A DNA stretch of 64,000 bases. It comes from Okeania sp. SIO2B3 (lineage in GTDB: Bacteria > Cyanobacteriota > Cyanobacteriia > Cyanobacteriales > Microcoleaceae). The notes below the pieces were generated by a model that was given only the letters and a program-made list of their open reading frames with translations, made no database searches and was not told the origin of the DNA. Position 1 is the stretch's first letter. The number at the start of each line of letters is the position of its first letter. Below, piece after piece: positions 4,653 through 50,535 of the stretch. The stretch is taken from assembly GCF_010672525.1 (NCBI RefSeq), contig NZ_JAAHGH010000024.1:1-64000 (forward strand). The letters are read 5' to 3'. The translations under genes were made by a program, and so were the position numbers.

Positions 4653-6431
4653 TTAGAAAGATTTGCCAATGAGTATGGAAACAGGATGAGAAACTGCCAC
4701 TCTAAAACCTACTGACTTATACCTACTTCTGGGAGTTTTCCAATTTCTATTTGCACTACGACAACCTTTAGAATAGTTTAAGTATCCTCCTCCTCTCAAC
4801 ATTCTGTAGTTATAATTGCTATCTTTTTCCCACACACTACCATCTGAAGGAGCACCCTGATAATTATTATGCCAGGGGTCGGCGCACCACTCCCAGACAT
4901 TGCCATGAAGATCGTATAATCCAAAAGCATTGGGTGGAAAACTACCTACATCTGTTGTTTGTTCGCGATAATTTTGTTGTAATGAACAGGCATAAGCTTC
5001 TTCGCCATTATAGTTTGCTAGGTCAGTTATCAGACTATTACCAAAGTAAAATAATGTCGTTGTTTCTCCGCGACAAACATATTCCCATTCTGCCTCTGAT
5101 AGTAACCGATAAGTTTTTCCAGTTTGAGCAGATAGCTGGCGACAAAATTCAATTGCATTATACCAAGACACCATTTCTACTGGTCTATTTTCTCCTTTGA
5201 AATAAGCTTGGTTTTTGCCCATCACTGCTTGCCACTGCCCTTGAGTAATGGGATATTTACTAACAAATAAAGGTGGTATTGTAACTGTATGTTGTGGGCT
5301 TTCTGTTTCCCATTTTTCTGCTGTTGTTTTTGGGGAACCCATCAAGAAAGTATTGCCAGGAATAGATACCATTTCTAGGAAAATCTTATTGGCAATATTT
5401 TCAATGAATTGTTGAGTTTCCCGTTGCTCTTTTTGGGTTTCAATTATTTCGCAGTTTGGGCTAATTTTGATTTTTAAATATTCAAATTTAAAAGTTTCCA
5501 ATTCGAGTTCAAGACTAGAATCAACAGTTAATAATTCTGGAGGAGTATCGGTAATTATTGGCAGAGTTGCTGGCACAGTTGAGGGGATATTAGTTATGAT
5601 AAATTCTTTTACTGGTGATAATAAAGTCAACCATTCAACAACAAATTGAGGCCGTTCTTCTGGCTCTAATTTCATGCCTTGAATAATTGCATTATTGACT
5701 CGATCGCTAATTTGAGAATTATATTTTTTTGGTGGAATTAATGGTATTTTTCCTTCTTGTCTGACTTTTGCGGGTGTAGGCATTTCACCTGTCAATAAAA
5801 CATATAGGGTTGCTGCTAGGGCGTATATATCAGTAAAAGCTCCCCGTTTGGCTCGTATTTCGTACTGTTCAATTGGTGCAAAGTACAATGTACTATCTGT
5901 TGTATGAGTTTGTACGCTGCCACTATTAAATTCTCGTGCTAAACCAAAATCAATTAATATTGCTTCTAAAGTATCTCGACGTAGGAGAATATTTTGAGGT
6001 TTAACATCCCGATGTAAAAATCCTTGATTATGTATAAATTTTAGTGCTTCTCCTACTTGTTTAATTAGATGTATTGCTTCACTTTCTGATATAATTCCGT
6101 CTTGTTCTTCACGATAAATTCCTAAGTCATCCCCGTCTATATATTCCATCACCATGCACCATAATTTATTTTCTTTAAAAAGGCGGTGAACTTCTACAAC
6201 ATTGGGATGACTACATTTTGCTAAACATAAGGCTTCATTTAAAAAGTTTTCTTGATATTTGTCAAAGTTTGGTTTACGTTGTACTCGATAATTGAGAGTT
6301 TTAATCGCAACTAATTGATTAGAGTTTTGTTCTAAAGCACGATAAGTAATCCCGAAACCGCCAATACCAAGCAGGTCTTGAATTATATATTTGCCATTTT
6401 GTAATTGTTTACCTGATTTCCAGTATTTCAT
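4653..6431 (-). CDS. Ser/Thr protein kinase with C-terminal FGE/SUMF1-like domain
   Basis: A 592-residue signalling protein. Residues 14-270 form a Hanks-type kinase with glycine loop GIGGFG (22-27), K44 in VAIK, catalytic HRD (140-142), KPQN and DFG (161-163), so all catalytic residues are present. A linker follows, with no membrane segment evident. Residues ~353-585 form a formylglycine-generating-enzyme-like (C-type-lectin fold) domain: MVSIPGNTFLMGSP, ITQGQWQAVMG, WEWCADPW and a closing LRGGG...CRSANRN...GFRV block. Kinase-FGE fusions are typical of filamentous cyanobacteria; the domain usually acts as a binding module rather than an enzyme. Its closing block has ordinary A-rich codons, unlike the gene at 47409. 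Confidence 0.9.
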   Translation of the reverse strand: MKYWKSGKQLQNGKYIIQDLLGIGGFGITYRALEQNSNQLVAIKTLNYRVQRKPNFDKYQENFLNEALCLAKCSHPNVVEVHRLFKENKLWCMVMEYIDGDDLGIYREEQDGIISESEAIHLIKQVGEALKFIHNQGFLHRDVKPQNILLRRDTLEAILIDFGLAREFNSGSVQTHTTDSTLYFAPIEQYEIRAKRGAFTDIYALAATLYVLLTGEMPTPAKVRQEGKIPLIPPKKYNSQISDRVNNAIIQGMKLEPEERPQFVVEWLTLLSPVKEFIITNIPSTVPATLPIITDTPPELLTVDSSLELELETFKFEYLKIKISPNCEIIETQKEQRETQQFIENIANKIFLEMVSIPGNTFLMGSPKTTAEKWETESPQHTVTIPPLFVSKYPITQGQWQAVMGKNQAYFKGENRPVEMVSWYNAIEFCRQLSAQTGKTYRLLSEAEWEYVCRGETTTLFYFGNSLITDLANYNGEEAYACSLQQNYREQTTDVGSFPPNAFGLYDLHGNVWEWCADPWHNNYQGAPSDGSVWEKDSNYNYRMLRGGGYLNYSKGCRSANRNWKTPRSRYKSVGFRVAVSHPVSILIGKSF

Positions 6432-45580: not shown

Positions 45581-46440
45581 TTAATAATTAATTGTTCGGT
45601 AAATTTTAGGGAGTAGGAAATAGGGTGAAATAATTGGTGGTTTCTGTACGATAATTTATTTTATTTTTTATTGTTTGGAGATGTCTAATATCAAATCTGG
45701 TAGCATCGGTATATTTGGAAAGTTAATCTAGGAGTCAGGAGTTGTAGGGGCGAATGGCAATTCCCCTGTACAGGAGTCAGAAGGGAAGAGAATTTAGAAA
45801 GATTTCCTCTTTGATGAAGATGTAAAATTTTTTTATACCTAATTAAGCGGATTTGATACAATTTTTAGGGGTAAATACAGAAAGCAAAAACTTCTCTAAA
45901 GTTCATCAAACTTACTCATAACTATAGCTGTCAAACTAAAATGAGTAAGTTTATTCAGTTGTCTATCCATTGAGTCGTTATCAGGTGAAGTTAAACGGTG
46001 GATAAGAGAATTATTGTTCTTATTCTCGGTCTATTTCATTAATTATTTTTTTTGCTTACCATATATTTATAAGCAGGTCAAACTACTATGAGAGTAACTG
46101 ACAAAAATTAGTTCATCATCGTTGAATCAATGTTTGGCGATCGCTTACTTAAAGAACGAAATAATTAGGGTTTTGGGCTGAAAATTTCCATTGGGTAATA
46201 ATTACCCTTTGATTATAATTTCTTTATTTTATCACAAAAAGGCTGAAACTATTGAAACTCCGTGAGCTAATTTAGGCTTTTTTTGATGTTTTTTGTCAGA
46301 GATTGATGACAAAATTTAAAATTTTAAAAGTATAATCTGATATTGATAATTAAAACTTTTAACTTAAGCGATCGCTAAGGTCAAGGATGAGGATTTAATA
46401 AGATACAGAATTTAAAGGGCAAAGATTGAAAAATTTGAAA
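45581..46440. other. Intergenic, no gene recognised
   Basis: 45610-45700 holds an AATTGATAATTT-like repeat. 45747-45777 is a worn copy of the GTAGGGGCGAATGG palindrome, flanked by GTCAGGA units. 46180-46440 is AT-rich with one HIP1 site (46367). No credible open frame. Confidence 0.5.
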
Positions 46441-46594
46441 TGACTTTTTCAGTTGTGGGGTATTTTTTGTGTTGAATAAAAAGTCATACTTGGGGGGGGA
46501 CGAACCACCCCTAATGACTAAATCGTATCAGAAATTTTTTGCCGATGCAAGGGGAATATCCTTTTCTCGCCGATTTTTTTGGTAGCTTCACAGA

Positions 46595-46729
46595 ATGCAG
46601 ATTAGTCATCCGTATATCCGTGGCAATCCTTGTCTTGCCCTGACTTCTCTGAGAGTTGTTTGGGATTTAGGTAATGCAGAAGTTTTAAGGATTCTATGGA
46701 ATCAGGCGATCGCTACTGTTAAGGAATGA
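46595..46729 (+). CDS. Possible 44-residue peptide in tandem unit 1
   Basis: MQISHPYIRGNPCLALTSLR followed by VVWDLGNAEVLRILWNQAIA and TVKE. The same frame is kept in unit 2, while unit 3 is broken. There is no clear ribosome site before the ATG, so this is either a very small gene or the copied tail of a larger lost gene. I recognise no family. Confidence 0.3.
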   Translation: MQISHPYIRGNPCLALTSLRVVWDLGNAEVLRILWNQAIATVKE

Positions 46730-46917
46730 GGATAAAAAATACAGAGATTCAAGAGGGAAGATTTCAAACTCGGATATGACTCATTCAGTTGTGGATATTG
46801 TGTTGAATAAAAAAATCATACGCAGGGGCGAACAACCCCCAATGATTAAATTGTATCAGAAATTTTTTCTGCTGGCAAGGGGAATATCCTTGCGGATTTT
46901 TTAGGTAGCTTCACAGA

Positions 46918-47055
46918 ATGCAAGGTTCAGAAGATTTGCATCTGTGGCAAAATCCTTATCTTGCTCTGACTTGTCTGAGAGTTGTTTGGGATTTAGGCAA
47001 TGCGGAAGTTGTCAGGATTCTATGGAATCAGGCGATCGCTACTGTTAAGGAATGA
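46918..47055 (+). CDS. Possible 45-residue peptide in tandem unit 2
   Basis: MQGSEDLHLWQNPYLALTCL followed by RVVWDLGNAEVVRILWNQAI and ATVKE. Compared with unit 1 the first ten residues differ and the last 32 are nearly identical. Most nucleotide differences in the shared part are few, so the array is recent and selection on the peptide cannot be judged. Confidence 0.3.
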   Translation: MQGSEDLHLWQNPYLALTCLRVVWDLGNAEVVRILWNQAIATVKE

Positions 47056-47408
47056 GGATAAAAAAATACAGAGATTAAAGAGGGAAGATTTCAAACTTCG
47101 ATATGACTCATTCAGTTGTGGGGTATTTTTTGCGTTGAATAAAAAGTCATGCGTAGGGGCGAACGACACCCAATGACTAAATTGTATCAGAAATTTTTTC
47201 TGCTGGCAAGGGGAATATCCTTGCGGATTTTTTAGGTAGCTTCACAGAATGCAAATCTTCTGATCCGTGCATCCGTGGCAAAATCCTTGTCTTGCCCTGA
47301 GTTCTAAGCTCACACGGATTATGGCACGGATGTACGGATTAATTCGCGGGAGGGAAAGAAAAAGAGGGAAAAAGGGAAAAGAGGGAAAAGGGGAAAAGAG
47401 GAAGAATT

Positions 47409-49589
47409 CTAGGAACCAAAGGCAGAAACCACCGGAACAGACCAGACAATCCGAAAACCTCTATTGTTGAAGAGGGCGACGGCATAGTAGTAGCCACGCC
47501 AGGCACACCGGCAAACCCAAGAATAGTCGTCCCAGCCACCACCACGGAGCAGTCTGATATTACTATCACCTCCAGTTTCCCAAGCACTACCATCAGTAGG
47601 CGCTCCATTATAGTTATCATGCCAAACATCCTGACACCATTCCCAGACATTTCCATGCATATCGTACAAACCAAAACTATTGGGTGGAAAAATTCCCACA
47701 TCTGTAGTTTCTTCACAACATATTCCTCTCAGTTCATCAGCATAAATCTTTCTGTAATCATAATAGTTAGCTAACTCAGACGTTATAGTTTCGCCAAAAT
47801 AGAAAGGCGTTGTTGTTCCTGCTCGACAAGCATATTCCCACTGACTCTCACTGGGTAAACTATATTTTTTACCTGTTATGCCTGAGAGTTCCTGACAAAA
47901 CTTTGTAGCCCAATTCCAGCTTACTTGTTCTACAGGGCGGTTTGCACCTTTAAAGTAAGAAGGATTATTTCCCATAACTGCTGACCACTGCGCTTGAGTG
48001 ACTGGATACTTTCCCATGAAAAATTCTGGCACATCTACATAATTTTGCGGACTTTCACTATCTCTTCTTCCTTCTTCCGTCTCTGGAGACCCCATGAAAA
48101 ATCTACCTGCGGGAATTTTTACCATTTCTAGGGAAATTCCATTGCCGAGGTTTTCTCTCATTACTTCTGCTTTACCTGGAAGGCGACTTATTACTTCTCC
48201 TTTCCTGTTAACTATGACGGTAGTAAATGTCTGAATGGAAAATTTGGGTTGTGGTGGAGGGGTAGGTTTTGGTGTTGGTTCTGGTTGAGGGGGAGGTTCT
48301 GGTATTGGTTCTGAAGTAGAAATATTTTCTAGAGGTGTTCTACTCCACAAATATTTAGTTAACATTGCTGCGACAAACCCACCTACTGCCAAACCTCCTA
48401 ATGTTAATAGTGGAAGGGGAGTTTCTGTTGTTGGTTCGGGAGGATAAATATTTTCTGGAGGTGTTTCTAGTGTTGGTTGGGAAGTAGAAATATTTTCTGG
48501 AGATGGTTTATTCCCAAAACCTCTACTTAATATTGCTGCGACAAACCCACTTCCTGCTAAACCTCCTAATATCAATATTTGTCTTCTAGTTTTATTCGTT
48601 TTATTAGGTTGGGGTTGGGGTTTTGCTACTACTGTTTCTGTTTGAGTAGGTAGGGGGACTGGTGTTGGTTCTGGTGGAGGGGGTGGTGGAGTTTGAAAAT
48701 TTAATACTTTTAATACTTCTAATACTTTCATGGCATTTTCATAACGCTGTGAAAAATATTCCCGCACCATGCTATCTAATATATTTGCCAGGTCGTCACT
48801 CACTTGTGCTTCATTTCGCCAGATAATATTTCCTGTCTTTGAGTCTGTTGGTAAGTTTTTTGGTTCTTTTCCTGTGAGTGCTTTTATTCCAACCATTCCC
48901 ACTGCATAAATATCGCTACTCAATTTTGGTTTGCCGTTACTTTGTTCGCTTGGCATATACCCAGGTGTTCCGACTGCTACTGTTAAAGTAGTGGTTCCTG
49001 GTTGGTTAGTTGTAGTTAATACACTTATTTCTTTTACCGCACCAAAATCTATCAATACTATTTTGTTATCCGACTTTCGACGCATCAAATTTTGTGGCTT
49101 AATGTCTCGATGAATAATATTATTTTGATGAGCTACTGCTAATGCTTCTAATATTCCTATGAGTAAGGCAATAGTATAAGACTCGCTTAATTTTCTCCCC
49201 GACGTAAGTTCCCTACTAATATCGTGCCCTTCTATATATTCTTGTACTAGGTAAAATTCTGTTCCTTCCTGAAAATGTGCAAATAATTTTGGTATTCGGT
49301 CTGAGTCTTTGCCTAATTTGTAGAGAGTCTTTGCTTCTCTCTCAAATAACTTTTGGGCAATAGCTAAAACTTCTGGGTCTGAACTTTTATTGTTGCTGAA
49401 CCAAGGGATGAATCTTTGCAGAAAAGGTAAATCCCATTTTTTACTTCCTTTAGGCTTAAGATGCTTAAGGACACATTTGGGTTTTCCTGGTAAGTCTAAA
49501 TCTTGAGCTAAGTAGGTATCTCCAAATCCTCCACTTCCCAGAGAGTCAATAATTTTATAGTGGTTTCTCAGGATTTTTCCAGACTGCAT
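47409..49589 (-). CDS. Ser/Thr kinase, membrane-linked, with C-terminal FGE/C-lectin domain (candidate DGR target)
   Basis: A 726-residue protein. Kinase at ~8-290 with GSGGFG (18-23), K42, HRDIKPQN (H160) and DFG (181-183). A Pro-rich linker holds two similar hydrophobic stretches (LILGGLAGSGFVAAIL near 340 and LTLGGLAVGGFVAAML near 400), one or both probably membrane spans. The FGE/SUMF1 domain spans ~505-715. Its end, LLRGGGWDDYSWV, CRCAWR, GYYYAVALFNN, RGFRIV, is the position of variable regions in diversity-generating retroelement targets. Codons 699-709 are GGC TAC TAC TAT GCC GTC then GCC CTC TTC AAC AAT, all NNC or NNT. One 60-base line here (47461) holds 34 G+C against 24 at 47821. 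No reverse transcriptase is in the window. Confidence 0.9.
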   Translation of the reverse strand: MQSGKILRNHYKIIDSLGSGGFGDTYLAQDLDLPGKPKCVLKHLKPKGSKKWDLPFLQRFIPWFSNNKSSDPEVLAIAQKLFEREAKTLYKLGKDSDRIPKLFAHFQEGTEFYLVQEYIEGHDISRELTSGRKLSESYTIALLIGILEALAVAHQNNIIHRDIKPQNLMRRKSDNKIVLIDFGAVKEISVLTTTNQPGTTTLTVAVGTPGYMPSEQSNGKPKLSSDIYAVGMVGIKALTGKEPKNLPTDSKTGNIIWRNEAQVSDDLANILDSMVREYFSQRYENAMKVLEVLKVLNFQTPPPPPPEPTPVPLPTQTETVVAKPQPQPNKTNKTRRQILILGGLAGSGFVAAILSRGFGNKPSPENISTSQPTLETPPENIYPPEPTTETPLPLLTLGGLAVGGFVAAMLTKYLWSRTPLENISTSEPIPEPPPQPEPTPKPTPPPQPKFSIQTFTTVIVNRKGEVISRLPGKAEVMRENLGNGISLEMVKIPAGRFFMGSPETEEGRRDSESPQNYVDVPEFFMGKYPVTQAQWSAVMGNNPSYFKGANRPVEQVSWNWATKFCQELSGITGKKYSLPSESQWEYACRAGTTTPFYFGETITSELANYYDYRKIYADELRGICCEETTDVGIFPPNSFGLYDMHGNVWEWCQDVWHDNYNGAPTDGSAWETGGDSNIRLLRGGGWDDYSWVCRCAWRGYYYAVALFNNRGFRIVWSVPVVSAFGS

Positions 49590-50535
49590 GATTTTTTCAG
49601 TTATCAGACTTTCCTTTACCTGGGAAATATGCTGTTTTTGGCCTAATCAATTTGAGTATATATGAGCGCACCTTCTCCATTATACTTACATAATCATGTC
49701 AAGTTTTTATTTGTCAACCATAGTCTAATATAGTCAGGATTGCTTCGGTTGACTTTAGTATTTTTGATTCAGTTTGAGTATTAATATTGTCGTCTTGTTT
49801 GCAGGGGGCGACGGAATTTTTTCTACATGAATAATCCCTATTTAGTATTTGATTAAGTTGCAAATTCCCGTCAACGTCAAATAGTCTATTTATGGTCTTT
49901 TAAAATTGAGTATATATGAGCGCACCTTCTCCATTATGATTACAATATCATGTCAAATTTTTATTTGTCAACCATAGTCTAAGATAGTCAGGATTGCTTC
50001 GGTTGGCTTTAGTATTTCTGATGTAGTTTGAGTATTAATATTGTTCTCTTACTTGGGGGGCAACGGAATTTTTTCTACAGGAATAATAGCTATTTAGTAT
50101 TTGATTAAGCTACAAATTCCCGTCAACGTTAAATAGTCTATTTATGGTCTTTTGAAGTTGAGTATATATGAGCGCACCTTTTCTATTATGATTATAATAT
50201 CATGTCAAGTTTTTGTTTGTCAACCATAGTTTAATATAGTCAGGATTGCTTCGGTTGGCTTTAGTATTTCTGATGTAGTTTGAGTATTAATATTGTTCTC
50301 TTACTTGGGTGGGCGACGGAATTTTTTCTACAGGAATAATCGCTATTTGATATTTGATTAAGCTGCAAATTCCCGTCAACGTTAAATAGTCTATATTACG
50401 GTCTTTTGAAGTTGAGTATATATGAGCGCACCTTTTCCATTATGATTATAATATCATGTCAAATTTGTGTTTGTCAACCAATATTCTATAATTCTGAAAA
50501 TTGAAAATTATAGAATATTTAACTTAAATAACTAA
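49590..50535. repeat. Divergent promoter region built of ~250-bp direct repeats
   Basis: GAGTATATATGAGCGCACCTT occurs at 49654, 49918, 50160 and 50414 (periods 264, 242, 254). Each unit goes on with ATTATGATTATAATATCATGTCAA, CAACCATAGTCTAATATAGT, GGATTGCTTCGGTTG and TTCCCGTCAACGT. The fourth is partial and ends about 65 bases before the Hsp70-family start codon. Both the kinase (minus) and the Hsp70 gene (plus) must be driven from here. Confidence 0.88.

Follow-up and report, generated by a model that had tools for sequence, protein, structure and literature searches.

Okeania is a filamentous marine cyanobacterium. The draft genome of Okeania sp. SIO2B3 comprises 10.0 Mb in 249 contigs and is 99.85% complete, and the window that we analysed is the first 64,000 bases of its contig C157. 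An open reading frame on the minus strand of the window (47409..49589, 726 amino acids) encodes a kinase-FGE protein with Pkinase and FGE-sulfatase matches above Pfam cut-offs and with syntenic orthologs in two sister genomes, SIO2C9 and SIO1I7. The protein kinase domain spans residues 72-283 (48741..49376, minus strand; PF00069, E = 2e-29). The FGE-sulfatase or C-type-lectin-like domain spans residues 488-716 (47442..48128, minus strand; PF03781, E = 4.3e-48). A structural model of this domain, built with 59 sequences, has a mean pLDDT of 88.1, and it matches PvdO, Treponema variable protein 1 (2y3c, rank 3, E = 1.2e-19) and formylglycine-generating enzymes.

Two hydrophobic segments, both on the same strand as the gene, fall between the kinase and FGE domains: residues 337-355 (48525..48581; Kyte-Doolittle mean 1.81 over 19 residues) and residues 392-410 (48360..48416; mean 1.97 over 19 residues). 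The preliminary description had called the protein a membrane kinase, and on simple hydropathy the two segments are consistent with this. As the number of segments is even, the FGE domain would return to the kinase's side of the membrane. Both segments are contained in a 121-nt duplication (48289-48409 and 48457-48577, 80% identical), the first in one copy and the second mostly in the other. Further repeats flank the gene. Just 5′ of it, tandem repeats of about 252 bases occupy 49550-50480, with three copies of 252 nt and four copies of an 85-nt part, and 3′ of it repeats with spacings of 326, 331 and 663 bases occupy 46396-47254.

The variable region and its template

The preliminary description proposed that the 3′ end of this gene is the variable region (VR) of a diversity-generating retroelement (DGR). 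In part it pointed to a run of NNC or NNT codons at codons 699-709. The run is there, and its true length is 12 codons (698-709). Runs of at least 12 such codons also arise in 2.8% of 20,000 shuffles of the gene's own codons, so the run is weak evidence taken alone, and we set it aside as stand-alone proof of a DGR. The stretch was also described correctly as GC-rich: positions 47461-47520 hold 34 G+C among 60 bases, a count attained by 9 of 425 sliding 60-mers of the gene, which is 40.2% G+C overall. For the sister gene at 4653, a comparison of its last 400 bases with the template core described below yielded nothing significant (best E = 0.18, nine bases).

The evidence that carries the case comes from a comparison of five Okeania genomes, namely SIO2B3, SIO2C9 (G003), SIO1I7 (G004), SIO3B5 (G001) and G002. 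When the reverse transcriptase (RT) of phage BPP-1 was used as a query against 148 genomes, strong DGR-type matches were obtained in several families, and among the five Okeania genomes in SIO2C9 alone (E = 9.4e-34). There the RT belongs to a complete DGR with RT, Avd, template repeat (TR) and VR, arranged at locus L104 in the order TPR-FGE target gene, TR1, avd, RT and TR2. PHROGs and Pfam support both avd and the RT, and NCBIfam supports avd as well; no NCBIfam DGR RT model matched the RT, for which the best NCBIfam model, one for group II introns, stayed below its cut-off.

TR2 of SIO2C9 aligns to the window without gaps over 142 bases, from 47550 to the stop codon at 47409. In the core of the alignment (47454..47550, minus strand; 97 gap-free columns) 18 of 29 template adenines are changed, as are 3 of the 68 other bases. 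For the first 95 columns the corresponding counts are 18/29 and 3/66 (Fisher p = 2.7e-9), while the last 47 columns are changed at 0/2 adenines and 5/45 other bases. The changed adenines span 47470..47537 (minus strand) in the positional comparison with TR2, slightly past the end of the region first proposed (47463-47531), which does lie within the VR. They touch 14 codons within 685-707, namely 685, 687, 688, 689, 691, 692, 695, 697, 699, 701, 702, 704, 705 and 707. Adenine-directed mutagenesis had been suggested for AAC and AAT codons; the changes are indeed concentrated at template adenines, but template codons AGC, AGG and AGT are affected too. The tail (47409..47453, minus strand) aligns to the end of TR2, is copied along with the template in SIO2C9 and is predicted to hold the initiation-of-homing (IMH) element.

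Two of the three non-adenine differences in the core recur in other VRs of the genome. Position 47496 is T in all four of the main SIO2B3 VRs compared and 47490 is C in two of the four, which suggests that the lost template of SIO2B3 itself may have differed from TR2 there. The remaining difference, at 47460, is an ordinary change. The hallmark of a DGR, a near-repeat differing at template adenines, is found here with the template of a sister genome, not with the genome's own. The VR lies in the C-terminal C-type-lectin-fold (FGE) domain, as in DGR targets. Together, the template comparison and the domain matches bear out the proposal that the C-terminal FGE domain of this kinase protein holds a DGR variable region, one that lies far from any cassette, and a DGR origin for this VR is close to certain.

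The machinery is not found in SIO2B3

The preliminary description called for a search of the genome for a DGR RT and a template, and neither was found in the SIO2B3 draft of 249 contigs. PF00078 gave 16 matches, and inspection of their translations by eye revealed none that is DGR-like and none with the motif of the SIO2C9 RT. Judged by eye, these genes resemble the group II intron and RT-Cas1 types, together with fragments and one unclassified RT on contig C186. The latter has a YMDD motif in a 392-aa frame and lies near the contig end (C186:57495-58070). With the SIO2C9 RT as query, the best match in the SIO2B3 draft was an RT-Cas1-like gene (32% identity, E = 3.2e-29), and the best matches in the other Okeania genomes were similarly remote from the self-match of 4.7e-238 (SIO1I7, E = 1.1e-14; SIO3B5, 5.7e-11; G002, 4.0e-7). 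Avd scored above cut-off in SIO2C9 only, one genome of five; the best match in SIO2B3 (E = 8e-6) is below the bAvd cut-off. There was no template among the ten TR2 matches in the SIO2B3 draft, nine of which are in FGE genes and one of which is a 17-base match.

In a draft of 249 contigs the absence of an RT is not proof of its loss. The interval from TR1 to TR2 is only about 2.2 kb and is flanked by repeats, and is easily lost in assembly. The four Okeania genomes without a DGR RT do include one assembled in about 110 contigs. The absence of an RT or template had been named beforehand as grounds for rejecting a DGR. This absence was largely what we obtained, yet the SIO2C9 template still identifies the region as DGR-made. 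The statement that fares worse is that the organism varies the sensor end of the kinase at present, since the draft yields no DGR RT or template and the site of the cassette is rearranged.

This site adjoins menD in SIO2C9. In SIO2B3 it lies inside a contig of 528,760 bases, where the target-gene portion corresponding to L104:4024-5515 is followed by about 1.9 kb with a TnpB-related gene and then by menD. The TnpB-related gene matches TIGR01766 just above its cut-off and NF040570 below its cut-off, and has no Pfam match. The TnpB-type element (L258:6593-8553, on contig C228) occupies the position of the cassette, and its DNA is multi-copy, with 13 genome matches including itself. SIO3B5 keeps scraps of the TR1-avd stretch at this site and no RT. 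In G002 and SIO1I7 the 3′ part of the target runs into shared downstream sequence without a cassette.

Another genus of the family has an RT that is 88% identical to that of SIO2C9 over 196 amino acids, and a FastTree tree joins the pair with a support of 1.0. Together with the scraps in SIO3B5, this favours an older presence of the cassette and later losses, and disfavours a gain by SIO2C9 only. The latter possibility survives because, at the right edge of the menD site, G002 and SIO1I7 have letters in common that are missing in SIO2C9; a gain in some lineages is possible and the direction of change at this site is unsettled. The menD genes of the five genomes are 96.0-97.2% identical, and so resolve the branching order poorly. 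The RT of the other genus (G021:C1341:2762-3783) is apparently split into two separate open frames, and is perhaps decaying too.

The timing of the last rewriting

Much of the window from 41.7 to 58 kb aligns in order with SIO2C9 and SIO1I7, and 5′ of the VR both orthologs are 93% identical to the window gene. In that part of the gene there is no adenine bias, with changes at 32/762 adenines against 115/1325 other sites for SIO2C9, and at 42/745 adenines against 100/1296 other sites for SIO1I7. In the VR, the SIO2C9 ortholog agrees with the window at 14 of 29 adenine columns and 65 of 68 non-adenine columns (p = 2.4e-7), and the SIO1I7 ortholog at 11 of 29 and 61 of 68 (p = 3.5e-7). As the non-adenine columns agree while the adenine columns mostly differ, the window VR was rewritten after the species separated. 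Compared with TR2 of its own genome, the SIO2C9 ortholog is changed at 14 of 29 adenines and at none of the 68 other bases, and its tail is identical; judged by its letters, this VR is a fresh copy of TR2. A more distant copy in SIO3B5 (contig C379), for which synteny with the window is confined to the repeats around the gene, is 85% identical upstream and agrees with the window at 5 of 29 adenine and 60 of 68 other columns.

The genome of SIO2B3 has 27 PF03781 matches, and we scored six VR copies against TR2 as changed adenines and changed other bases. The window copy (C157), at 18/29 and 3/68, is accompanied by those on C169 (15/29; 4/68), C35 (16/29; 6/68) and C82 (13/29; 5/68). The copies on C2 (13/29; 13/68) and C112 (11/29; 16/68) show little or no adenine excess in count, and are older copies or not targets. 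The FGE copies beyond these six fit the template poorly. The C35 VR is identical to a copy in SIO3B5 at all 29 adenine columns and at 65 of the 68 others, with 95.2% identity over 646 bases. Since it shares every adenine-column letter with a different sister species, this VR looks frozen, and on these comparisons it would have been either unaltered since the split from SIO3B5 or transferred.

Competing explanations

We consider it probable that the window gene is a remote (trans) DGR target that was recently rewritten and is now orphaned, the cassette having apparently been lost from SIO2B3. While the machinery was present, a template RNA would have been copied by an Avd-RT complex that placed random bases at adenines. 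The 3′ end of the gene would then have been overwritten by the cDNA, with 14 codons altered in what is presumably the binding region of the FGE domain. The rewriting dates to after the lineage split from its sister species, and the subsequent loss of the cassette would have left the last-written sensor variant fixed. Retrohoming in trans, a true loss as opposed to an assembly gap, and a ligand-sensing role are all inferred. That the window VR is inactive today through loss of the cassette is likely on the basis of the draft genomes.

The most serious competitor accepts that the VR is DGR-made and holds that it is still active, with the RT and template on a plasmid or on short contigs missing from the draft. 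We think this unlikely. It is true that DGR RTs occur on cyanobacterial plasmids, as six of 30 matching plasmid records show 62-67% identity to the SIO2C9 RT (Microcystis, twice, Fischerella, Nostoc, Anabaena and Acaryochloris), and that a VR rewritten after the species split implies an RT not long ago. Viral contigs compared with the DGR RT gave three distant RTs, 33-40% identical. Set against continued activity are a draft that is 99.85% complete and has no such RT, its absence from four of the five genomes in the genus, the rearranged menD site and the frozen appearance of the C35 VR.

A further explanation is that the VR was written in another gene or organism and arrived by recombination between paralogs or by transfer, in which case this gene has been no target since the split. 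FGE paralogs are indeed numerous, and over the 300 bases that precede the VR the identity to the orthologs is 84-89%, compared with 93% for the rest of the upstream sequence, a hint that exchange between paralogs is possible as well. Among the loci compared, which held 64 distinct VR-like copies counting the templates, no donor was found, and the closest copy agrees at 15 of 29 adenine columns. We regard this origin as improbable. A last explanation dispenses with a retroelement and invokes ordinary divergence, or selection at binding residues, the codon run being a product of chance or codon preference. It can point to the shuffles that attain such a run, but is strongly disfavoured and hardly credible: a matching template with RT and Avd exists in the same genus, the differences are concentrated at the adenines of that template, and elsewhere in the gene adenines are not favoured.

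Relation to known systems

Cyanobacteria were already known to have remote targets of this kind. Vallota-Eastman et al. (2020, PMC7517822) describe kinase-CLec targets among cyanobacterial DGRs and count 76 remote targets in 21 genomes. The gene studied here resembles theirs in having the VR at the 3′ end of a CLec/FGE domain on a Ser/Thr kinase, in being remote and in having IS200/IS605-type elements nearby. The RT group is also the same, with the SIO2C9 RT 57-68% identical to all full-length relatives tested. Unlike SIO2B3, where we found no RT or template, their genomes were chosen for having an RT. The nearest case in that paper is Nostoc all3226, where remnant TR-VR homology stands without an RT close by; the genome holds two DGRs.

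Trichodesmium erythraeum is likewise a marine filamentous relative with remote targets. According to Paul and Eren (2022, PMC8867640) TR/VR homology is present at 18 of its loci, no fewer than 11 of them hypervariable in metagenomes, and the species differs from SIO2B3 in having two DGR RTs. The same source mentions crAss-like phage targets, where, as here, the target gene is kept in genomes without a DGR; those are phage tail proteins, whereas the SIO2B3 target is a cellular kinase with several dispersed paralogs. Treponema denticola TvpA (2y3c) and Thermus TaqVP are single-domain proteins, unlike our target with its kinase fused upstream (PMC6328139). The VRs of TaqVP, Mtd and TvpA are at the C terminus, and their variable residues are solvent exposed and form a potential binding site (PMC6328139). 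By analogy, the window VR residues are presumed to lie on the ligand face of the FGE fold, as the preliminary description had it. Most cyanobacterial DGR targets of clade 5E have been proposed to be antigen sensors (PMC10907252).

The apparent loss of the machinery and the orphaned, recently rewritten target are the interesting part of this work. Within the open-licence library that we searched, we found no paper on Okeania and diversity-generating retroelements. What is new is the comparison of five species. One has intact machinery, which we did not find in the other four; one target has been rewritten since the split, and another looks frozen across species. This contrast makes the fate of hypervariable sensors after their mutator disappears directly testable. 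Surveys that begin with the RT would miss targets such as this one. One published survey notes that remote targets would have escaped it (PMC8144416). As a more tentative suggestion, which we hold to be less likely than not, Okeania species may repeatedly lose (or briefly gain and lose) DGR machinery and keep many sensors with a VR, leaving each species with a private frozen repertoire of kinase sensors that were once hypervariable. If true, there would be a diversify-then-fix cycle, and a sensor repertoire would become heritable through the loss of its mutator.

FGE domains also occur in tandem in the SIO2B3 genome. Five PF03781 matches fall in a single open frame of 2418 amino acids (C228:409134-413582), and three in another of 1285 amino acids (C112:352985-355672).
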